Shown here one piece after another: positions 5,173-26,387 of a stretch of DNA of 64,000 bases (position 1 is its first letter; each line of letters starts with the position of its first letter). The position numbers and the translations under genes were made by a program. Origin of the DNA: Caldicellulosiruptor obsidiansis OB47 (lineage in GTDB: Bacteria; Bacillota; Thermoanaerobacteria; Caldicellulosiruptorales; Caldicellulosiruptoraceae); contig NC_014392.1 of the NCBI RefSeq assembly GCF_000145215.1, forward strand, positions 1,310,001 through 1,374,000, written 5' to 3'. The notes below the pieces were generated by a model. The model searched no databases, was not told where the DNA came from, and was given only the letters and a program-made list of their open reading frames with translations.

Positions 5173-5348
5173 ATTTGCTGAAAAACTGTTACATGCTTCC
5201 TTGAGTGCTCAAGAAGGTTGGTGCAAAAAATAATGAATTTTTGAAAGGGACTTTTCTTTTGTTACTATATTTACTTTGTATGGTTATTTTTTTATTTAAT
5301 AACCTAAAACTTTCTTACAAAAAGATTTTATCTTAATCATATTTTGTT

Positions 5349-5560
5349 TTCTCGATGCCGAAAATTGATAATTGCAACTGAAAATATATCATTTTACTAA
5401 AAAGTTGAGGTAATGTACTTGTTTTTTGTCTAATCTTACAATTGTAGAGAATCTATATGTGTGGTATAATATCAATAAAGTAAACCGCTCAAGAGGTGAG
5501 TAGAAAATGTTAAGAAGCTAACAAGTAAAGTGTTGAGAAGAACTATAATTTTTTAATTTA
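5349..5560 (+). repeat. Promoter-leader repeat, copy 1
   Basis: It resembles 19309-19520 at roughly 75-80% identity by eye, strongest from ATGCCGAAAATT through the -10 to the mini-ORF. Both copies stand upstream of a + strand gene for a small exported or anchored protein. Confidence 0.7.
5436..5470 (+). promoter_or_regulatory. Promoter with TTACAATTGTA operator-like palindrome, copy 1
   Basis: TTGTAG (5442-5447) and TATAAT (5465-5470) are spaced 17 bases. The palindrome TTACAATTGTA (5436-5446) overlaps the -35. The same core appears in the blaI promoter copies, which suggests, but does not show, control by the BlaI protein at 11267-11647. A mini-ORF follows: GAGGTGAG then ATG TTA AGA AGC TAA at about 5506-5520. 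Confidence 0.5.
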
Positions 5561-5736
5561 AGAAAGACCAGCTAATTAAAGTCAAGAGTTTTTTAAAAAA
5601 TTTTTGATAACATTTTATGGTGTAAAATCCTTTTAAAAGGGTATAAGAAGATAAGCTATCCATTAGAAGTTGACATAACATATGGAGGCTAGACACATAT
5701 TATGGTTAACCAATGTTTCATTAATAAAACAATTAT

Positions 5737-6018
5737 TTATACGCAACAAACAGCAGTCTTGTTAAAACATTTTTGAATATGTTCTTCAGGAATTCTAAGT
5801 TCAAAAGGTTTTTTATCGCGCATGACAGCAAAGATGATACAAATAATTTTTCTCATGACAGCATAAAATAGAACTTTTTTGGGCTTTTGTTGGCACTTTT
5901 TCTGATAGTATTCGAAGAGTACAGGGTTACAAGGCTTAGAGTCTCTTTTGGTTCTGATATTGGCAAGAGCAATTGTAAATAAGATTCTTCGCAAGATTTT
6001 AGAGCCACGTTTAGACAT
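5737..6018 (-). pseudogene. IS110-family transposase, C-terminal fragment
   Basis: The 93-residue frame begins MSKRGSKILRR and continues through NPVLFEYYQKK, KPKKVLFYAVMRKI and KPFELRIPEEH, the typical end of the transposase_20 domain of IS110-family recombinases. The RuvC-like N-terminal half is absent, so it cannot be active. It is not a copy of the element at 17356-18642, whose C-terminus differs, so the island has received at least two IS110 lineages. Confidence 0.75.
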
Positions 6019-6126
6019 TTATTTATCCCTCACCTACCTCTTTGCTGAAATTTGTAAAAGTATATTCGTTTAAATGGAACTCTGGAAAGTAATAACTCAA
6101 TCATGCAATTATGGAGGATTAACCAA

Positions 6127-6753
6127 ATGCAAAAAATATTTCGTAATTCAATGGTAATATTTTCTTTAATTCTCATTGGATCATTGGTATTATTAAGTAT
6201 TAGTTTAAAAATCTCTCACATTAGGGCTGACACAATCTTAAATAAGCATAAGCTAGAAGACAATAGCTCCGAGAGAATTCATATTATAAAAAACAAAAAG
6301 AAATTTATAGCAGATATCATCTCAGTTTTACCCGTTGTTGAAGAAAAGAATATAAACAACTCAACTGTGGACAGCAACATAAGTAAAGTAAAAGCAAAAA
6401 GGCAAGTACATTATAAAATTATTAAAGCTGTGCTAAATGAAGCCAATCACAAAAGCATCCTTGGCCTTGCTTCAAACAAAGATATATATTCATTTGTATC
6501 TGAGAAAGTCCTAAAAATACTCTTTCCCAAACCTACACAAGATACTTATACCTGTTACTATAAGGTAGAACCTGCTGACCCCAAGCAAACCGTTATTTGG
6601 TACAAAAAAGGATATTTTTATTTTGTGTACTGCTTCACAGACTCTTACACCATAAATCCAGCTGACCCTTATGGTGATATAAAAAAAATGGTTCTCTTGG
6701 TTGAGAAAATTAAAAATAAATGGATCATAAGCGATTTTTCAAGCAATAACTGA
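6127..6753 (+). CDS. Small membrane-anchored or exported protein of unknown function
   Basis: The chosen ATG at 6127 has GGAGG 8 bases upstream; an in-frame ATG at 6103 has no ribosome site. The 208-residue product has a hydrophobic N-terminal segment (MVIFSLILIGSLVLLSI region), a basic linker, and a C-terminal domain of about 90 residues with alternating aromatic strands (CYYKVEPADP, GYFYFVYCF, KWIISDF) that looks like a small beta-rich extracellular domain. I do not recognise a family. It lies in the island between transposase fragments, downstream of the promoter at 5436-5470, though about 650 bases away with an inserted IS110 fragment between. Confidence 0.6.
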   Translation: MQKIFRNSMVIFSLILIGSLVLLSISLKISHIRADTILNKHKLEDNSSERIHIIKNKKKFIADIISVLPVVEEKNINNSTVDSNISKVKAKRQVHYKIIKAVLNEANHKSILGLASNKDIYSFVSEKVLKILFPKPTQDTYTCYYKVEPADPKQTVIWYKKGYFYFVYCFTDSYTINPADPYGDIKKMVLLVEKIKNKWIISDFSSNN

Positions 6754-6951: not shown

Positions 6952-7272
6952 CAATCATAATTATATCACTGAACTTTTGAAATCAAAAGATATTATCCTC
7001 TACCAAGTAGTAGAAAACGAAGATGAAGTAGAACTCTACATAAGTCAGGTGCAAAAATCTCATGAGTGTCCTAAATGTGGTAGTATCACAAGTAAGATAC
7101 ATGATTATCGTATTCAAAGAGTAAAAGATGTACCAACTGATGGGTAAGAAAACATATTTAGTTTTAAGAAAGCGAAGATATATTTGCAAAAAATGTGGAA
7201 AAAAGTTCTTTGAACACATAAATTTTTTAGGAAAGCATCAAAGAATGACAAATAGATTAGCAGCATACATTA
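6947..7272 (+). pseudogene. ISL3-family transposase, N-terminal fragment, frameshifted and truncated
   Basis: The GTG-started frame encodes ELLKSKDIILYQV and an N-terminal zinc ribbon (CPKCG near residue 43 and CKKCGKKF further on), typical of ISL3 transposases. One surplus G near 7141-7144 breaks the frame after VPTDG; the second frame continues with KKTYLVLRKRRY and RMTNRLAAYI. At about 7272 the sequence switches to the duplicated mtnA tail, so the catalytic DDE domain is gone. Confidence 0.8.
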
Positions 7273-7382
7273 AAGGTGTTATTTTTCCACCGTTTGAGGA
7301 GAATATTTCAAAATTTAAAGAAAAGTAAGTCTTTTAACGGGGTGTTATGAGAAATTGAATACCCCGTTCATTTTTTATACAT
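7273..7382 (+). repeat. mtnA 3' end plus terminator, diverged copy 2
   Basis: It encodes GVIFPPFEENIS and FKEK where mtnA has GVVFPPFEENIS and LKEK, with the same stop position and a decayed form of the same terminator. It is fused in frame to the transposase fragment. Base differences from copy 1 at mostly third positions suggest descent from a related mtnA gene rather than a very recent duplication. Confidence 0.8.
7337..7369 (+). terminator. Diverged copy of the mtnA terminator
   Basis: AACGGGG and CCCCGTT arms are retained with a longer, less paired interior, followed by a T-run. Confidence 0.55.
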
Positions 7383-8377: not shown

Positions 8378-9541
8378 TTATTCTATTTCTCTAAAATAAT
8401 ATGGATTGAAAAATCTTTTTGCTCCTGTATATTCTTGATAATAACGATAGATATTCGGTGTATGTTGAGCAAATTTCAAGGTAACTTTATCTACGAGAAT
8501 TACTGTATGATCAAATCTTCCGTCATTAGAAAAATCAATTTGCATTATTCCACCATTATCTAATGAATTTATACTATCTACTACAACAACGCGTGGACCA
8601 GGTGTGTCAATAGATTTATAGCTTGTCATATAACTCCAGAAAGCTTCAACATTCTCCCAATTTCGTGAGCCTCCACCAGGACCAGCATACCACCCTTTTT
8701 CATATGAACCAGGAACCATCATCACCTTATTTAATATATCATTCGTAGTATCATTTGCTCCAAATCCGTACCATAAAACTTGAGATGCAAAGTTTGTGCA
8801 ATCTCCTCCTCCAGCGGTTGCATCATAAAACTTGGTATTACGGTTATATACGTATTTCTTTGCATATTCAACAGCTCTTGATGTACTATAATAATGATTT
8901 ACTGCTGGCAAACTAAGAATACCAACATTACTTTTCAATTCAACATCACTGAAGTTTTTATATACTTTCTTCGAATCTGGAGAAAATTCCTGTTCAATCA
9001 TTTCAGCTAATTCTTTCGGTTGAAATTCTCTTATTAATTTTTCTTTTGAAATTTCATAGAAACTTAGATCTTCATAATCATGTTCTGTAATTTTCCAGCT
9101 ATTTTCCATTTTTATTAACTTAAATATATTTTCGCCACCACAAATAAAAGGTAGATACGCATTCTGTCCATCTAATTTTATTTCTAATATGACGCTTGCT
9201 TGATTACCATTTATATCAATAGCTTTGTAATTGAACTCTAATGGAAATCTTCTCTTTTCAATGTAACAATAACCTTTTTGATAAATATACTTTCTTCTTG
9301 CTGTTAAATTTTTCAGAGCTATTACTTTGTTTTGATTTTGTATTTTAGTCATATCAAGGTAAGGAATTATATCTTTATATTCCATTTGTAAATATGCATC
9401 GTACTGAGTGTTGTAAAAAGATTCAATAATGTTTTTAATACTTTCTTCTTCAGTGTTTTTATAAAAATATGAATTTGCATAAGCAATGGAATTTGGTATT
9501 ATTAGAATTAAACATAACAAAAACAATACAATTTTTCTCAT
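8378..9541 (-). CDS. Secreted Amidase_6-type protein with a BlaR1-shared N-terminal domain
   Basis: The start at 9541 has AAAGGGG 9 bases upstream; an upstream in-frame ATG lies before that site. The 387-residue product has a signal peptide (residues 1-22), a domain at about 34-165 that closely matches the C-terminal sensor of the BlaR1-like protein encoded upstream, a linker, and a C-terminal putative amidase domain (about 215-385). The amidase domain shows GGGDCTNFASQ with the likely nucleophile Cys248 and a later FDHTVILV with His345, as in the Amidase_6/CHAP-like group that cuts amide bonds in peptidoglycan or peptides. It is the third gene of the operon. The cell wall is the probable target, by inference. 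Confidence 0.8.
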   Translation of the reverse strand: MRKIVLFLLCLILIIPNSIAYANSYFYKNTEEESIKNIIESFYNTQYDAYLQMEYKDIIPYLDMTKIQNQNKVIALKNLTARRKYIYQKGYCYIEKRRFPLEFNYKAIDINGNQASVILEIKLDGQNAYLPFICGGENIFKLIKMENSWKITEHDYEDLSFYEISKEKLIREFQPKELAEMIEQEFSPDSKKVYKNFSDVELKSNVGILSLPAVNHYYSTSRAVEYAKKYVYNRNTKFYDATAGGGDCTNFASQVLWYGFGANDTTNDILNKVMMVPGSYEKGWYAGPGGGSRNWENVEAFWSYMTSYKSIDTPGPRVVVVDSINSLDNGGIMQIDFSNDGRFDHTVILVDKVTLKFAQHTPNIYRYYQEYTGAKRFFNPYYFREIE

Positions 9542-9699
9542 TTGAGATATCCCCTTTCTTTTAGTTTTCATATGGTTTTCAGATTAAATTAAATAAATAA
9601 ATTTTTTGAAACTATTATCTTCTGTTTAATCAGGAACTATTGAAAATAAGAAGTACGACATAACTTTCCGCCTCCATTTTTCTAGTATCATACAAATTA

Positions 9700-11259
9700 T
9701 TACTTAATTCCAAAATCCCTATCTATTTGCTTTTTTATTTGTTCGTAATCAGGTTCTGGTAACTTTTGGTCAGTAGAGAATTCATAGAACATTAAGGCCC
9801 ATTTATCATAGATATGCTTTGTAATTTTCCATGTCCCCTCCTGCTTTTCTAATTCAAAAATATTTTCTCCATATGAAATAAATGATGGATATGCCTCTTT
9901 TAGTTTTATCTCTAAGTCAATAACTACTTTGGCTTTGTTGCCATAAAGCTCTATGTTCTTATAATGAAGTTCATATGGAAAATGTCTCTTCTCAACATAA
10001 CAGTACCTTTTTTCGTCTGTATATTTTCTTCTAAATACTAACATTTTTAATGCAACAACCTTATTATGATTTTGTATCTTTGACATATCCAAGTACGGTG
10101 TTATATCTATGTACTCCATTTGAAGATAAGCTTTGTACTGTGTTTCATAAAATCCTTCTATAGTTGATTTGATTGCTTCTATTTCATCGCTATCAAAAAT
10201 CAAAATATCTTTTGCCAAAATTTGAACAAACGCACTTAAGAATATTGTTGTTGATACTAACACCACAACAAAAACCTTTGCACCTTTGCTCATTTTCTTT
10301 GACTCCAAACTCATAATAAACCTAAATCTCTCAACAATGCTTTCTTTTCTACCTACCAGACCAAATGCCGCGTCTGCTCCACTGCCTATACTCACCAAAA
10401 GTGTGTTATAAAGTACCTCTGCATACCTTCTTTTGCCATCCTTCTTAAGCTTTCTTATTACTTCTTCGTCACATGAATATTCGCATTCTCTATTTAGCTT
10501 TAAAACAGCAAAGTATACTAAGGGGTTAAACCAATGAAGTGCATTTATTAATTTGCTTAGCCATTTAACAAGTACATCTTTTCTCTTGAAGTGTACAAGT
10601 TCATGTCTTATGATTAATCTTAAATCTTCTCTTACTATGTCCTTTGTAGGTATTACTAAGATCGGAGTAATTATTCCGATTAGCATAGGTGTTTGTATAA
10701 TATCACTTTCTAATATTTTTATTTTTTTAGGAATTTTTCTTAGATTGTAATACCTTTCAATCATTCTCCTGCAATATTCATTTGAACATTTTCGTGAACT
10801 TCTTATCAGTATCATTTTAAACCAAATATACCTTATCAAAAACCATGCAAAAAATACTATGGCCCCTACAAGCCAGACATAAACCATAACTTTTCCTAAT
10901 GTTTCAGGATTAAAATATCGAAGATTTTTAGAAGGCAGGGCAGTTAAAGCCCCACCTTGTGCTGTATTCCCTGTTAGTTGCAAGTTCAATGAACTACTGT
11001 TACTGAGTTTTAATGTCATATAACTGCTGTTGCCTAATATAATACTCTGATTTAGTACTCTACTATCTTTCTTACTAAATTTAATCAATACATTCCATGG
11101 AATGGTAAAACAAAAAAGCCCTATCATCCAAATATAATACCTTGCCCTTGCGCTCAAATGCTCTTTAAAGATTTTGCTCAAAATAGCAAATATCAAAACA
11201 GCTATGCTACCACCTACTGTCATTACTGAAATCCATTTGAATATAACTTCTATATTCAT
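9700..11259 (-). CDS. BlaR1-like M56 membrane metalloprotease with an unusual sensor domain
   Basis: The 519-residue protein has N-terminal membrane helices (about 10-30, 42-58 and 124-150) and the M56 zinc-protease motif HELVH at 219-223 with the downstream acidic helix NRECEYSCDE (257-266). A last membrane helix lies at about 328-348, followed by an exported C-terminal domain (356-519). In classical BlaR1/MecR1 that last domain is a penicillin-binding sensor; here there is no SxxK motif, and the domain instead matches the N-terminal domain of the neighbouring amidase. By family analogy, ligand binding outside triggers the protease, which ends repression by BlaI. It starts 7 bases after blaI; the last codons of blaI (GAGGAG) act as its ribosome site. 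Confidence 0.85.
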   Translation of the reverse strand: MNIEVIFKWISVMTVGGSIAVLIFAILSKIFKEHLSARARYYIWMIGLFCFTIPWNVLIKFSKKDSRVLNQSIILGNSSYMTLKLSNSSSLNLQLTGNTAQGGALTALPSKNLRYFNPETLGKVMVYVWLVGAIVFFAWFLIRYIWFKMILIRSSRKCSNEYCRRMIERYYNLRKIPKKIKILESDIIQTPMLIGIITPILVIPTKDIVREDLRLIIRHELVHFKRKDVLVKWLSKLINALHWFNPLVYFAVLKLNRECEYSCDEEVIRKLKKDGKRRYAEVLYNTLLVSIGSGADAAFGLVGRKESIVERFRFIMSLESKKMSKGAKVFVVVLVSTTIFLSAFVQILAKDILIFDSDEIEAIKSTIEGFYETQYKAYLQMEYIDITPYLDMSKIQNHNKVVALKMLVFRRKYTDEKRYCYVEKRHFPYELHYKNIELYGNKAKVVIDLEIKLKEAYPSFISYGENIFELEKQEGTWKITKHIYDKWALMFYEFSTDQKLPEPDYEQIKKQIDRDFGIK

Positions 11260-11266
11260 CTCATCT

Positions 11267-11647
11267 CTACTCCTCTTTTCCTAATAACTTCTTAATCTCC
11301 TCAAGCTCTTCTTTTTTTAAGTTTCCACTTTCAACTAATGCTGCTATTAAATCTTTTACAGAGCCATTAAATAGCTTATTCAATACCCTTGTTGTTTCTC
11401 TCTTTGCGTATTCCTCTTTGCTAATAGAAGGACTGTAGTAGTAAAGTTTATTTTTTTTCTCTTGCTTTATTACTTTCTTTTTTACAAGCCTGTCAATCAA
11501 GGTGTATATGGTTGACTTTTCCCATTTGATGTCTTTTTCTTTTAACCTTTGCACTATCTCTGGTGCACTCAACGCTTTCCCTTCTTCCCACAAAACTTTC
11601 ATAACCTCTAACTCAGCTTCTGATGGCTTTAATAAATCTTTGTTCAT
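11267..11647 (-). CDS. blaI: BlaI/MecI/CopY-family transcriptional repressor
   Basis: This 126-residue winged-helix repressor shows KPSEAELEVMKVLWEEG at the N-terminus, the recognition region KWEKSTIYTLIDRLVKK and a C-terminal dimer segment. The start at 11647 was chosen because AAAAGGAGAG lies 9 bases upstream; a longer frame would run into the operators. It binds DNA as a dimer and is normally inactivated through the M56 protease encoded next to it. It probably represses its own operon through the palindromes at 11662-11702. Pieces of duplicate blaI genes survive at 15297-15347 and 19099-19170. The gene symbol denotes the family; resistance to beta-lactams is not implied. Confidence 0.88.
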   Translation of the reverse strand: MNKDLLKPSEAELEVMKVLWEEGKALSAPEIVQRLKEKDIKWEKSTIYTLIDRLVKKKVIKQEKKNKLYYYSPSISKEEYAKRETTRVLNKLFNGSVKDLIAALVESGNLKKEELEEIKKLLGKEE

Positions 11648-11661
11648 TTGCTTCACTCTCC

Positions 11662-11715
11662 TTTTACAATTATGATTACACATATATTTTACAATAGTAA
11701 AAACCAATTTGTAAA
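11662..11715 (-). promoter_or_regulatory. blaI promoter with paired operators (copy A)
   Basis: On the minus strand TTTACA (11710-11715) and TAAAAT (11686-11691) are 18 bases apart. The palindrome with TTTTAC and GTAAAA arms (11687-11702) covers the -10, and a second, imperfect one (TTTTACAAT and GATTACA, 11662-11680) lies between -10 and the ribosome site. Two adjacent dyads are the usual BlaI/MecI arrangement. The same module recurs at 15379-15423 and 19188-19239. Confidence 0.65.
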
Positions 11716-14718: not shown

Positions 14719-14870
14719 CTCACAAACCCTCTTTCTTTTAGTTTCTACATAATTTTCAGATTAAATAATAAATTTTTTGAAACTATTATCTTCTGTTTAA
14801 TCAGGAACTATTGAAAATAAGAAGTACGACATAACTTTCCGCCTCCATTTTTCTAGTATCATACAAATTA

Positions 14871-15290
14871 TTACTTAATTCCAAAATCCCTATCTATTTG
14901 CTTTTTTATTTGTTCGTAATCAGGTTCTGGTAACTTTTGGTCAGTAGAAAATTCATAGAACATTAAGGTCCATTTATCATAGATATGCTTTGTTATTTTC
15001 CATGTCCCCTCCTGCTTTTCTAATTCAAAAATATTTTCTCCATATGAAATAAATGATGGATATGCCTCTTTTAGTTTTATCTCTAAGTCAATAACTACTT
15101 TGGCTTTATTGCCATAAAGCTCTATGTTCTTATAATGAAGTTCATATGGAAAATGTCTCTTCTCAACATAACAGTACCTTTTTTCGTCTGTATATTTTCT
15201 TCTAAATACTAACATTTTTAATGCAACAACCTTATTATGATTTTGTATCTTTGACATATCCAAGTACGGTGTTATATCTATATACTCCAT
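14871..15290 (-). pseudogene. Truncated BlaR1-like sensor domain (copy B)
   Basis: The 139-residue frame equals the last 139 residues of the intact BlaR1-like protein (MEYIDITPYLDM to DFGIK) with about one difference. Membrane helices and the HELVH protease motif are missing. Its ATG is an internal methionine codon of the parent gene and has no good ribosome site, so it is most likely not translated. Confidence 0.85.
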
Positions 15291-15378
15291 TTTTCTCTTG
15301 CTTTGTTGCTTCTTTTTGCAAGCCTGTCAATCAAGGTGTATATTCTTTGTTCATTTGCTTCACTCTCCTTTTACAATT

Positions 15379-15423
15379 GTGATTACATAATATATTTTAC
15401 AATAGTAAAAAGTATTTTGTAAA
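15379..15423 (-). promoter_or_regulatory. blaI-type promoter with operators (copy B)
   Basis: TTTACA (15418-15423), an 18-base spacer and TAAAAT (15394-15399) are kept exactly. The TTTTAC/GTAAAA palindrome and the proximal TTACAATTGTGATTACA dyad also remain. With blaI and blaR1 deleted, transcription would pass directly into the genes at 14718 and 13667. Confidence 0.6.
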
Positions 15424-15483
15424 GAAGGTTTTTTGAAATGATTTTTATTTCTTTTTTTATAACTTAAAAGTAAAAAAATGAGA

Positions 15484-17355: not shown

Positions 17356-18642
17356 TTACGCTGTTCTTGCTAATGTCTCTCTCTTTATATCGCTCAACAT
17401 CTTATTACCATCATACCTTATCCCTTTTTTCAAAATCGCATAAAATATCCTTATCAACTTACAGCAAAGCGCTATCAGTGATTGCTTCTTCTTCAATGGA
17501 TTGTTCTGCCGCGTTGTGTAATACATGTGCAGCTGTTTAAATTCTTCATTCTTTGCTACTATTGTAATCATGGCCCTGAACAAACTACTTCGAAGCCGCC
17601 CTCGCCCTCTTTTGCTTATACATGTCTGCCCCTTGTACTTGCCAGAACTATTCTCAATTATATTAAGACCAGCTAATTTCTGGATCTGTCTCGCATCCTC
17701 ATACCTCCTTATATCTCCAACCTCAGAAATAAACCCAACTGCTGTTTTTACACCAACACCTTTTATTTCAAGCAGCCTATCACCATTCGGCACATCTTTC
17801 AAAAGCTCTGCCATCTCACCTTCTATCTCTTCTACCTGCTTCTTTAAAAGCTCATATTCTTCAAGCAAATATTTTATCTCTTGTCTTGCCAGCTTTCTAC
17901 CTTCTTTTTTACCTATACTCCTTTTAGCAGTCTCTACTAAATCCATCGCCCTCCTGCGACTAATCGCACGTTTATCTACTTTGTCACGCCAGTACTCTAT
18001 AATCCCTTCTACTTCCTTTTCTATTACATCACTTGGCAATGGCATCTCTTTTAGGGTCAATAGCGCTACCTTGCCTTCCCAATCAGAAAATACCTCTAAA
18101 AACTCTGGAAAATAGATATCCAGCCAGTTGATTATTTGATTTTTTAAAACGTTCAGCTGTTTTTGTAGCCTTTCATATATGTTCATCGCTACTCTCATCT
18201 CAGCATATATACCCTCGGGTATATTTGGTTCTGTGTATCTTCCATCCTTCACAAGCATCGCTATCGTCTTCGGATCCTTTATATCGCTCTTTGTTGGTGT
18301 ATTATCATCGAGTTCTTTGCTCCTTTTTACGTGAAAAGGATTCACTAAAACCACTTTTATGCCATTCTCTCTTAAGTACTGCTCAAAGCACAGCCAGTAA
18401 TGCCCTGTAGGTTCTATCCCAACTATCATGTTGTCTTTGCCATTGGCTTTCATTATCTTATTTGCCCAATCCAAAAATTTTTCCATACCTTCTTTTCTAT
18501 TCTCAAACTCTATTCTCTTGCCAAGCTCCACTCCTCTAAAATCAAATGCTCTTCCAACATGCCTTTCCTTCGCTATGTCTACTCCTACAACTAAAGTTTT
18601 TTCTGTTACTTGTAATATCTTTTCATTTTGTGTATACTTCAA
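17356..18642 (-). CDS. IS110-family transposase (RNA-guided type recombinase)
   Basis: The start is a TTG at 18642 with GGAGG 8 bases upstream; a TTG at 18684 has no ribosome site. The 428-residue protein has the RuvC-like DEDD domain: Asp22 in VVGVDIAKE, Glu77 in GIEPTGHYW, and Asp120/Asp123 in TKSDIKDPKT. A coiled-coil stretch (about 245-282) follows. The C-terminal transposase_20 domain has the GVGVKTAVGFISEVGD helix-hairpin-helix and the serine region NSSGKYKGQ (Ser332/333), the likely nucleophile. All key residues are present, so it may be active. IS110 recombinases use a bridge RNA from the element's own non-coding end. Confidence 0.9.
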   Translation of the reverse strand: MKYTQNEKILQVTEKTLVVGVDIAKERHVGRAFDFRGVELGKRIEFENRKEGMEKFLDWANKIMKANGKDNMIVGIEPTGHYWLCFEQYLRENGIKVVLVNPFHVKRSKELDDNTPTKSDIKDPKTIAMLVKDGRYTEPNIPEGIYAEMRVAMNIYERLQKQLNVLKNQIINWLDIYFPEFLEVFSDWEGKVALLTLKEMPLPSDVIEKEVEGIIEYWRDKVDKRAISRRRAMDLVETAKRSIGKKEGRKLARQEIKYLLEEYELLKKQVEEIEGEMAELLKDVPNGDRLLEIKGVGVKTAVGFISEVGDIRRYEDARQIQKLAGLNIIENSSGKYKGQTCISKRGRGRLRSSLFRAMITIVAKNEEFKQLHMYYTTRQNNPLKKKQSLIALCCKLIRIFYAILKKGIRYDGNKMLSDIKRETLARTA

Positions 18643-18646
18643 AGAG

Positions 18647-18714
18647 GGTACCTCCTTTGTTGTGTTTTGTCGTAAGTTGTACAACTTACATTCTGTATTT
18701 TACCAGGAGGTACC
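18647..18714 (-). promoter_or_regulatory. Ribosome-site-sequestering inverted repeat with central palindrome
   Basis: GGAGGTACC at the transposase ribosome site (18647-18655, minus strand) has an exact complement upstream (18706-18714). Between them lies the perfect 18-base palindrome GTAAGTTGTACAACTTAC (18672-18689). Folding would hide the ribosome site. Confidence 0.55.
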
Positions 18715-19098: not shown

Positions 19099-19170
19099 TC
19101 ACTCCCATTTAATGTTTTTTAATCTCACCTCTAACTCTGCTTTTAATGGCTTTAATAAATCCTTTTTCAT
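19099..19170 (-). pseudogene. Decayed blaI remnant (copy C)
   Basis: A 23-codon frame reads MKKDLLKPLKAELEV, then RLKNIKWE and stop. It matches the first 15 codons of blaI joined by a deletion to the segment before its recognition helix. The promoter upstream is intact. Nothing of blaR1 remains nearby. Confidence 0.75.
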
Positions 19171-19187
19171 TTTTACATTACTCTCTT

Positions 19188-19239
19188 TTACAATTGTAAT
19201 TACATATATATTTTACAATAGTAAAAACTAATTTGTAAA
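19188..19239 (-). promoter_or_regulatory. blaI-type promoter with operators (copy C)
   Basis: TTTACA (19234-19239) and TAAAAT (19210-19215) with an 18-base spacer match copies A and B. The proximal dyad here is the clean TTACAATTGTAATTACA. Confidence 0.6.
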
Positions 19240-19308
19240 GAGGTTTTTGAAAAGCTTTTTGGAGATTTTTATACAAAAAAATTCAAGCCTAAACATGTCT
19301 TTCTATTC

Positions 19309-19520
19309 TTCTATGCCGAAAATTAGTTATTAGAACTTATAATATAATATTTTACCAAAAAATTGAGAGAATGTGCTTATTTTTTTGTCTGATCTTACAA
19401 TTGTATGGTTTCTACATACGTGGTATAATAATGATAAAATAAATAAACCACTCAAGAGGTGAGTCGAAAATGTTTGAAAATTAATGGGTAAAATTGTAAA
19501 TAGGGATTATATTTTTAATC
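19309..19520 (+). repeat. Promoter-leader repeat, copy 2
   Basis: This is the counterpart of 5349-5560. Shared elements in order are ATGCCGAAAATT, a T-run, the TTACAATTGTA palindrome, GTGGTATAAT, CTCAAGAGGTGAGT and a four-codon mini-ORF. Confidence 0.7.
19395..19429 (+). promoter_or_regulatory. Promoter with TTACAATTGTA operator-like palindrome, copy 2
   Basis: TTGTAT (19401-19406) and TATAAT (19424-19429) are 17 bases apart; the palindrome is at 19395-19405. A GAGGTGAG site and mini-ORF ATG TTT GAA AAT TAA follow at about 19470-19484. It drives the genes from 19652 onward. Confidence 0.5.
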
Positions 19521-19651
19521 TCAGTCGTTCACAAAAATAAAAGTTAGAGGATGATTATTAAATTATTTACAGTTTAAAATACTTGATAATGCTCATATTG
19601 AGCGTTTCTGCAAAAGGCTAAAAAACAATAATTATTTTTGGAGGGTTATGC

Positions 19652-20185
19652 ATGAAAAAAATGTTTTGTTTGGTAATTTACCTTTGGATATGTATACTTT
19701 CGAATGCATTTATTTTTGCAGCTTCGCAAACACAAGAAGATATCCAAAGCCTCTCTCAGTCAACAGTAGATATCGATGAGAAAAATCAACTCTTCGGAGT
19801 TAATCCTCCAAGCTCTTCAAATCAAACTGTGAACTTAGACCGAGAAAGTTATAACGGTACTGTAGTATGGGCATCAGGGATATTATATAGTGACAAGTGG
19901 GTTAAAACAAGTGGCAATACTATTAAAATTGATGCTTGCTTTGGAATGTATTTAAATAAGTCAGATGCTATCAATAGGACAAATCCTTTAAGCAATGCTT
20001 ACGCATCTATTCCAGTATACTTATTGGATAGTTCAGGGAAGAAAACATCCCCTCAATATATTATTACTAATAAAGGTTGGCAAACTATTTCTTTTTCTGT
20101 AACTCCAAATAAAGATTATTATATTGAGTTTAATTTTAATACTGGTTATTATGCGTCAGGAGACTTTATAGTATACAAGCCTTGA
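19652..20185 (+). CDS. Secreted beta-sandwich-like protein, function unknown
   Basis: The 177-residue product has a signal peptide (residues 1-24, ending FIFAASQ). The mature part has strand segments with aromatic and Asn/Gly turns (NGTVVWASGILYSD, ASIPVYLLDSSGKK, DYYIEFNFNTGYY) that suggest a single beta-sandwich. I recognise no family. GGAGGG precedes the ATG. It is followed by a VanZ-like gene and a broken secreted-protein gene, all downstream of the promoter at 19395. Confidence 0.65.
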   Translation: MKKMFCLVIYLWICILSNAFIFAASQTQEDIQSLSQSTVDIDEKNQLFGVNPPSSSNQTVNLDRESYNGTVVWASGILYSDKWVKTSGNTIKIDACFGMYLNKSDAINRTNPLSNAYASIPVYLLDSSGKKTSPQYIITNKGWQTISFSVTPNKDYYIEFNFNTGYYASGDFIVYKP

Positions 20186-20254: not shown

Positions 20255-20773
20255 ATGCTTCAAAAGTATAAGCAAAGAGCTGTAAAGATTATTTTCGATG
20301 GATATATATTTGTAGTTATGATAATTACACAATTTCCAATCAAATTGCCATTTAAAATAGACATTACTAAAGTACAGTATAACTTAGTTCCATTTTATTT
20401 TTTAATAAAGAGAATTGAAGCATTAAGAGAAGCATCAAGAGCAGGGTATAATATAAAAGAATACTTACTACCTACTTTTGAAATAATATTTGAAACTTTT
20501 GGGTATAATATTATTTTATTTTTACCATTCGGCTTTTTGCTACCAATAATAAGGAAAGATTGCTCATTAAAAAAAGTAACATATTATAGTTTTTCATTTT
20601 CTTTATGCATAGAAGTATTGCAGTTAATTAGTATGATAGTGACAAACAATTCTGGCAGATGTTTTGACATAGACGACATTATAGCGAATACAATAGGCGG
20701 AATTATGGGATTTTACTTTTGTATTATTAGTAAAAGATTATTGATGCTTATATTCAAGGGAGTTGATTTGTAA
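20255..20773 (+). CDS. VanZ-family membrane protein
   Basis: The 172-residue integral membrane protein has the VanZ-family marks NIILFLPFGFLLP in the middle and FDIDDIIANTIGGIMGF near the end, with about four membrane helices. VanZ itself raises teicoplanin resistance by an unclear route, and relatives occur widely in Firmicutes without glycopeptide clusters, probably acting at the envelope. The ribosome site is modest (AAGGAA). Its stop overlaps the ATG of the next, broken gene (TAATG). Confidence 0.8.
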   Translation: MLQKYKQRAVKIIFDGYIFVVMIITQFPIKLPFKIDITKVQYNLVPFYFLIKRIEALREASRAGYNIKEYLLPTFEIIFETFGYNIILFLPFGFLLPIIRKDCSLKKVTYYSFSFSLCIEVLQLISMIVTNNSGRCFDIDDIIANTIGGIMGFYFCIISKRLLMLIFKGVDL

Positions 20774-25619: not shown

Positions 25620-26387
25620 TTATGAAAATCTCAAAACTTCTATCCTAATTCTTCCCTTTTTAGTTTGGGTCAATACCTTATCTATTTTCAATCGTCCATA
25701 ATGACGAACAGAGATTAAATCTCCTTCTTTTATAGGATATGAAGGTTTATCAATGTATATCCAGTTTACTGCCACTTTCATCTGTCTGATTAAATCTGCT
25801 GCTTCTTCTCTTGAAATTCCAAAACCGTGGCTTATCACACTGTCAACTCTGAGCGATGCTAAAGTATAAGTAATCCTCTTGCCTTCATTGCTGAAAAAAT
25901 ATTTTATATCAACTTCATTGTCTCTGACAATGCTACATTTTACCTTTTCCTTGCCGATTTTGTCTATATTGGTTACAATATATGTTGCCACTTCATCTTT
26001 TACAAACACAAGTGCACTGTTTTCTTTGACAAGGATATCGCCTATCTTATCTCTTTTAATTCCATTACCAATAAAGCTACCAAGAACTTGCCTGTGAAAA
26101 AGTTTATCTTTGGCTTCAATCAAAATGGTTTCTATAGGGTACGTTAGATTTTCTGCATATTCCTCAAAATCCCTACTAAAAAGAGCCAATATATTTCTTT
26201 CGCTGCCTTCGTATCCACCCCAAATTTTGTATAAAATTTGATTCTCTTTTTTCAGAAGAAAATCAACAGCATACTTTATTGCAAATGGTGAAAGAAAGTC
26301 AGAATATTCAATACCAAACCTTGTTTTCTCTATCAAGTTTTTAATTTTTAATATTTCATGTTTGTTTTCTTCAGGGATATAGTACAT
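25620..26387 (-). CDS. ylmH: YlmH-type S4-domain RNA-binding protein
   Basis: The 255-residue protein has an N-terminal ylmH-specific region and a C-terminal S4 domain (about 175-245: LRVDSVISHGFGISREEAADLIRQ, VNW and GDLISVRHYGR). Family members bind the ribosome or tRNA in stalled large-subunit rescue and lie in the division cluster. Neighbours are ylmG and divIVA. Confidence 0.88.
   Translation of the reverse strand: MYYIPEENKHEILKIKNLIEKTRFGIEYSDFLSPFAIKYAVDFLLKKENQILYKIWGGYEGSERNILALFSRDFEEYAENLTYPIETILIEAKDKLFHRQVLGSFIGNGIKRDKIGDILVKENSALVFVKDEVATYIVTNIDKIGKEKVKCSIVRDNEVDIKYFFSNEGKRITYTLASLRVDSVISHGFGISREEAADLIRQMKVAVNWIYIDKPSYPIKEGDLISVRHYGRLKIDKVLTQTKKGRIRIEVLRFS

Follow-up and report, generated by a model that had tools for sequence, protein, structure and literature searches.

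We describe two copies of one leader, here called A and B, within a 64-kb window (positions 1310001–1374000 of a 2.53-Mb single-contig genome), each combining a promoter palindrome, a strong ribosome site and a mini-ORF of four codons. Comparison with relatives indicates that translation initiation is conserved in this leader at the sequence level; the exact length of the mini-ORF is only suggestive. We put at roughly even chances the interpretation that the promoter is repressed by a BlaI-family protein and serves cell-wall genes, and that the leader acts as a ribosome-loading or mRNA-protecting minigene.

Copy A spans 5315–5522 and copy B 19271–19486, both on the forward strand (nhmmer with a model of ten copies; blastn of each copy to the other). 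They are 77% identical over 203 bp (E = 2e-36), and a blastn search of the whole genome returns exactly these two. The shared palindrome promoter, ribosome site and ATG plus three codons plus TAA, as claimed in the original prediction for 5349–5560 and 19309–19520, can all be read directly from the sequence; the homologous block begins upstream of both intervals, and the likeness fades soon after the mini-ORF stop, before either interval ends. The putative BlaI-type operator (dyad 1, TTACAATTGTA; 5436–5446 in copy A and 19395–19405 in copy B, neither assigned to a strand; direct reading and pattern search) lies over the −35, its right half (TTGTAG or TTGTAT) forming a weak −35 located 17 nt before TATAAT (5465–5470 and 19424–19429, forward strand). 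A TGG precedes the TATAAT, which makes it an extended −10. The leader promoter was not listed by a sigma-70 scanner because its −35 matches at only three of six positions. In copy A, a degenerate second dyad (TATATGTGTG) was placed at 5454–5463 from its position, again without a strand; it reads TACATGTGTG in relatives and TACATATGTA in related promoters. The ribosome site GAGGTGAG (5493–5500 and 19456–19463, forward strand, read directly and, for copy A, also conserved) lies ~16 nt from the predicted 5' end of the transcript and is followed by mini-ORF A at 5507–5521 (ATG TTA AGA AGC TAA; MLRS) and mini-ORF B at 19470–19484 (ATG TTT GAA AAT TAA; MFEN), both direct readings on the forward strand.

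Between the two leaders, on the reverse strand, lie a gene for a BlaI-family repressor (11267–11707; Penicillinase_R, E = 1.4e-32), a blaR1-like M56 peptidase gene (9700–11259; Peptidase_M56, E = 2.2e-55) and, after blaR1, a gene for an Amidase_6 protein (8378–9571; Pfam, E = 1e-24). The repressor matches the S. aureus BlaI and MecI proteins of known structure with E values of 1.6e-16 and 6.7e-15, respectively. Pfam assigns the M56 sensor no further domain, and in particular no penicillin-binding domain. Its C-terminal 162 residues (355–516) share 51% identity with the N-terminal part of the neighbouring Amidase_6 protein. An extracellular domain appears to be common to sensor and effector. 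Given this resemblance and the lack of any further Pfam domain, the inducer of the sensor is probably not a beta-lactam as such. The cluster also carries traces of duplication. A 300-nt repeat (9596–9895 and 14767–15066, 99% identical) places a copy of the blaR1-like 3' end beside a partial second copy, and two more blaI promoters, at 15344–15443 and 19127–19260, retain only the first blaI codons and are relics of cluster duplication. A second mtnA 3' end with a hairpin terminator occurs at 7272–7370, 2.2 kb after the real one, and a transposase-like ORF of 442 aa, IS110-like by eye, occupies 17356–18684.

Behind leader A, a dispersed repeat and an IS110-type transposase remnant (5563–6018, reverse strand; repeat matches to query 264–301 and comparison with the relative G008; Transposase_20 match with E = 0.007, below the Pfam cut-off) stand where G008 has the gene after leader A. 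Judged from this comparison, copy A's own amidase gene is lost to the insertion-sequence remnant. The 216-aa gene that follows (c6; 6103–6753, forward strand) stands second in the leader-A unit of G008. At 5563–5600 begins a dispersed repeat that recurs at several sites in the genus and is probably an insertion-sequence end. Leader B is followed on the forward strand by a gene for a 177-aa protein (19652–20185) with its own ribosome site, GGAGGG, and an N-terminus that looks like a signal peptide by eye, and next by a gene for a VanZ-like protein (20255–20773; Pfam VanZ, E = 1.9e-25). Directly before the 177-aa gene, 19573–19650 belongs to a short dispersed element that matches many places in the genus genomes. 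The remnant of a blaI 5' end and promoter (19127–19260, reverse strand; repeat families D2 and D15), divergent to leader B, is promoter copy C, which we took to be the third member of a 75-nt family (11661/15369/19185) and which contains TTACAATTGTAA. With copy C read in this way, the palindrome core does equal its proximal dyad, as predicted.

In the 2.53-Mb genome, a pattern search for TTACAATTGTA gives six matches at five places, compared with one match for the reversed control pattern. Three of the five places fall within the blaI–blaR1 cluster (window positions 5436, 19188 and 19395), and the remaining two, elsewhere in the genome, are inside coding sequence. When up to one mismatch is allowed, the 64-kb window holds 20 matches vs 4.2 expected, many of them being the two strands of one palindrome. 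By these counts, the palindrome is not a chance feature. The dyad is also present in the blaI promoter, exact in the relic copy at 19188 and near-exact at 11665–11700 (intact blaI) and 15371–15408. All ten leader copies from the genus (see below) carry a TACA-NN-TGTA dyad overlapping the promoter elements, one of them with an A-to-G change between the half-sites; the distance from the centre of dyad 1 to TATAAT is 23 nt throughout, and dyad 1 shows 0–1 changes in 11 columns. The TACA/TGTA motif is that of staphylococcal BlaI/MecI (PMC4549145). Since BlaI proteins of C. thermocellum bind a different motif (PMC8457756), the assignment here rests on the staphylococcal type.

The features that mark a promoter as BlaI/MecI-controlled, linked blaI and blaR1 genes and a dyad in the blaI promoter itself, are thus recognizable in the predicted genes and sites. 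The seven genomes that carry the leader all fall among the 11 of 12 genus genomes with a blaI homologue, and leader-B copies are divergent and adjacent to blaI in G004, G005 and G010. We infer BlaI control of the leader promoter on three grounds, namely its dyads, the genes linked to it and the resemblance of the repressor to S. aureus BlaI/MecI; the description of the palindrome as BlaI-like gains support from TACA-AT-TGTA, the linked blaI (Penicillinase_R) and the occurrence in the blaI promoter. Related dyads precede the −10 of the 216-aa gene promoters in G002, G003, G005 and G007 (the second dyad of G002 is a perfect CTACATATGTAG). These promoters have no mini-ORF, so the mini-ORF is not needed for membership of the regulon.

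DNA similarity searches of 61 genomes (49 of them outside the genus) with leaders A and B and a separate, independent pattern search within the 12 genomes of the genus (10 matches; reversed control 0) agree on 10 leader copies in 7 of the 12: two in the window's genome (G000 A and B), two each in G010 (A and B) and G009 (a and b), and one each in G001, G004, G005 and G008. The similarity search gave no match to the leader proper in the 49 other genomes, and no match was obtained in viral contigs with a stricter pattern. Several hits were set aside: those to only ~250–301 of the leader A query or 304–401 of the leader B query are dispersed repeats; short matches to query 119–155 in G002, G003 and G004 and one in G042 look coding or unrelated once fetched; and two matches from a pattern scan of genome contigs, in unrelated genes, were judged to be chance. 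The copies fall into two or three groups and hence represent few independent lineages. A promoter-only relative in G001 (L113:13550–13617, reverse strand; a weak model match) has other sequence in place of the ribosome site and mini-ORF and an open frame of ~190 codons behind it; a likeness to this promoter at 25828 in the window's own genome was rejected, being inside a coding frame.

The mini-ORF has exactly four codons in nine of the ten copies and seven in G001. Its peptides are MLRS (G000A), MLGS (G008, G010A), MFEN (G000B, G004, G010B, G009b) and MLGN (G005, G009a). In the neighbourhoods fetched, some of which miss one end, blaI and the M56 gene lie between mtnA and aroB–ileS (all three named by eye); type A leaders are located between mtnA and the 216-aa gene, and type B leaders are divergent to blaI. 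In intact copies, a secreted-protein gene with its own ribosome site lies 57–170 nt behind the mini-ORF, and the leader is kept while this gene differs among relatives. It encodes a 421-aa Amidase_6 protein in G008 (72 nt after the mini-ORF ATG and followed by the 216-aa gene), a protein of 564 aa whose NlpC/P60 match is sub-threshold (E = 0.0012) in G005, a 344-aa shorter version of the latter in G009a, and a protein of 177 or 169 aa, with VanZ next, in G000B, G004 and G010B, again each with its own ribosome site. The downstream gene is broken or lost in four of the ten copies: in G010A it is reduced to 18 codons and then an Amidase_6 fragment, in G000A it is replaced by insertion-sequence remnants, in G009b it is fused or deleted, and in G001 it is lost. 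Three of these four keep the four codons.

To compare rates along the leader, we counted parsimony changes per column on a tree built from the upstream leader of the ten copies. The upstream region shows 0.67 changes per column, dyad 1 shows 0.09, and the −10 TATAAT is unchanged in all ten copies (0). The value rises to 1.05 between TATAAT and the ribosome site, falls to 0.14 in CTCAAGAGGTGAGT and to 0 in AAAATG, and rises again to 1.33 in codons 2–4, 1.33 in the stop codon and 2.0 in the three bases after it. Without G001, the codons and the stop show 0.78 and 0.33 changes per column, respectively, with TAA-to-TAG as the sole stop change. Outside the promoter, conservation in the leader is hence highest at the ribosome site and start codon, and codons 2–4 change as fast as background. 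Over the 18 columns of ribosome site and AAAATG there is one change where permutation gives 13.4 on average, and no permutation out of 20,000 reached so low a count; the permutation mean is 11.9 (P = 0.0001) without G001 and 9.2 (P = 5e-5) without G001 and G009b, these P values holding for the block as chosen, uncorrected for that choice.

The statement that length is conserved and sequence is not stands as a description, and as proof of selection it was dropped. In a neutral simulation with the ATG given, the four-codon frame was kept in all nine copies in 7%, 13% and 25% of runs at 1.0, 0.7 and 0.5 of the upstream rate, respectively (simulated P 0.07–0.25, not significant). Retention of the stop in nine copies is therefore compatible with neutrality, as expected if the ribosome site and ATG are left over from an ancestral gene truncated in a single event that preceded duplication of the leader, persisting by descent without function. 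We consider such a relic start unlikely, though it deserves serious weight. The wrecked downstream genes of several copies fit it as well, as does the overlap of the mini-ORF stop, in two of the ten copies (G004 and G010B), with an ATG that opens a 20-codon hydrophobic frame (TAATG; L061 and L062), a frame that is shifted in the window's copy B. It does not, however, account for a ribosome site and AAAATG conserved far beyond the flanking leader columns, and the separate ribosome site before each of three unrelated types of downstream gene speaks against it, as does the lack of a long ORF from the mini-ORF ATG, for which we looked in all ten copies; a long ORF there would have contradicted the original prediction. 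The latter result also weakens the suggestion that a shared ancestor gene was truncated twice: as all ten copies share one ATG and nine of ten the stop position, a single ancestral origin before duplication suffices.

The conserved initiation site points back to the minigene interpretation. Here, a very short ORF lies in the leader of a main gene that has its own start and strong ribosome site, and its initiation site is conserved while its peptide is not, as expected of a minigene. Two precedents come from PMC8708949: a leader minigene of six codons, equipped with a strong ribosome site, that protects espADB mRNA, and another of two codons that increases expression of txe. A third comes from PMC3997798, where RNase J1 is stopped on hbs mRNA by initiating ribosomes. 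In the present case, the linked BlaI-family repressor and M56 sensor-protease would control a small regulon, with both leaders among its promoters. BlaI dimers at the dyad over the −35 would block RNA polymerase, and under cell-wall stress the BlaR1-like protease would inactivate BlaI and release the promoter. Ribosomes starting on the mini-ORF could then shield the AU-rich 5' end from nucleases of the RNase J/Y type, and initiation there might keep ribosomes loaded and raise expression of whichever gene is attached, the peptide itself presumably having no role. Such a product-independent leader could be duplicated and placed before various cell-wall genes. Copy B of this genome is attached to the 177-aa and VanZ-like genes. 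The predicted leader or ribosome-parking function thus finds indirect support in the conserved ribosome site and start and in the separate ribosome sites of the relatives' genes.

The strong upstream start could also act in the opposite direction, capturing ribosomes and lowering expression of the downstream gene when the promoter leaks. Depending on how far away it lies, a downstream gene can be inhibited by a minigene (PMC8708949), and distances here are 57–170 nt; the main genes nevertheless have independent strong ribosome sites at distances allowing separate initiation, and we regard a translational brake as improbable. Slightly more doubtful still is attenuation, in which translation or stalling on the mini-ORF would switch a terminator or a ribosome-site hairpin, as in erm, cat and ABC-F leaders. 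A strong ribosome site on a short ORF upstream of cell-wall genes would suit this mechanism. Yet terminator scans found no terminator-like site in the leader, fold z-scores of five leaders range from −0.66 to 0.67 against shuffles, and none of the seven loci searched has an Rfam match, which disfavours attenuation and leaves ribosome loading or protection as the remaining simple account. Moreover, the codons are not conserved, so there are no conserved stalling codons, and group B lacks the hairpin of 5–6 bp that covers the mini-ORF in group A. An active tetrapeptide, for which nothing speaks beyond its presence, can practically be dismissed given four different sequences in nine copies, seven residues in the tenth and codon columns that evolve at the background rate.

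Several known systems resemble parts of this arrangement. Like the bla/mec divergons of S. aureus and B. licheniformis, it has a BlaI-family repressor and M56 sensor-protease, a divergent target gene and TACA/TGTA dyads in both promoters. Unlike them, it has a mini-ORF leader, a sensor with only an M56 domain by Pfam and no penicillin-binding domain, and Amidase_6, NlpC/P60-like and VanZ-like targets in place of a beta-lactamase or PBP. With the LEE4 (six codons), LEE1 (two codons; enterohaemorrhagic E. coli) and axe–txe minigenes it shares a very short ORF that has a good ribosome site and is placed in an AU-rich leader, ahead of a gene that starts independently; it differs in belonging to what is probably a Gram-positive-type thermophile, in its BlaI-type promoter, in an effect that is so far predicted and in the reuse of the leader before several different genes. 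STAB-SD elements and initiating-ribosome roadblocks (cry leaders, hbs) likewise have a strong ribosome site near the 5' end and an irrelevant product, whereas the present leader retains a properly spaced start codon and, after four codons, a stop, and stabilisation is putative. The C. thermocellum BlaI_0696 and BlaI_1845 regulons, as far as the available part of their description goes, are also small, autoregulated BlaI–BlaR1 regulons with putative cell-wall targets, but their motif consists of GTCTAT/GACTAT repeats rather than TACA/TGTA, and a mini-ORF, present here, is not mentioned in that part. No description of the present leader was recognised from titles and the beginnings of abstracts in a literature made up largely of journals outside subscription.

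Taken singly, the parts are familiar, namely a divergon of BlaI type and a leader minigene; that they stay together as the downstream genes change makes a modest case. Tentatively, and with somewhat less than even confidence, we suggest that it represents a reusable cassette within one genus, in which a BlaI-type promoter and an initiate-and-stop leader, selected for initiation and not for its product, have been copied beside different cell-wall genes. If this is correct, the leader would display natural selection acting on translation initiation and nothing else, in a form that is compact and repeatable. Because it occurs naturally with different codons, downstream genes and distances, the old question of whether a start–stop leader helps or hinders its message could then be tested by swapping these variants. 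It would also reveal a BlaI regulon aimed at the cell wall whose sensor has no recognised penicillin-binding domain.
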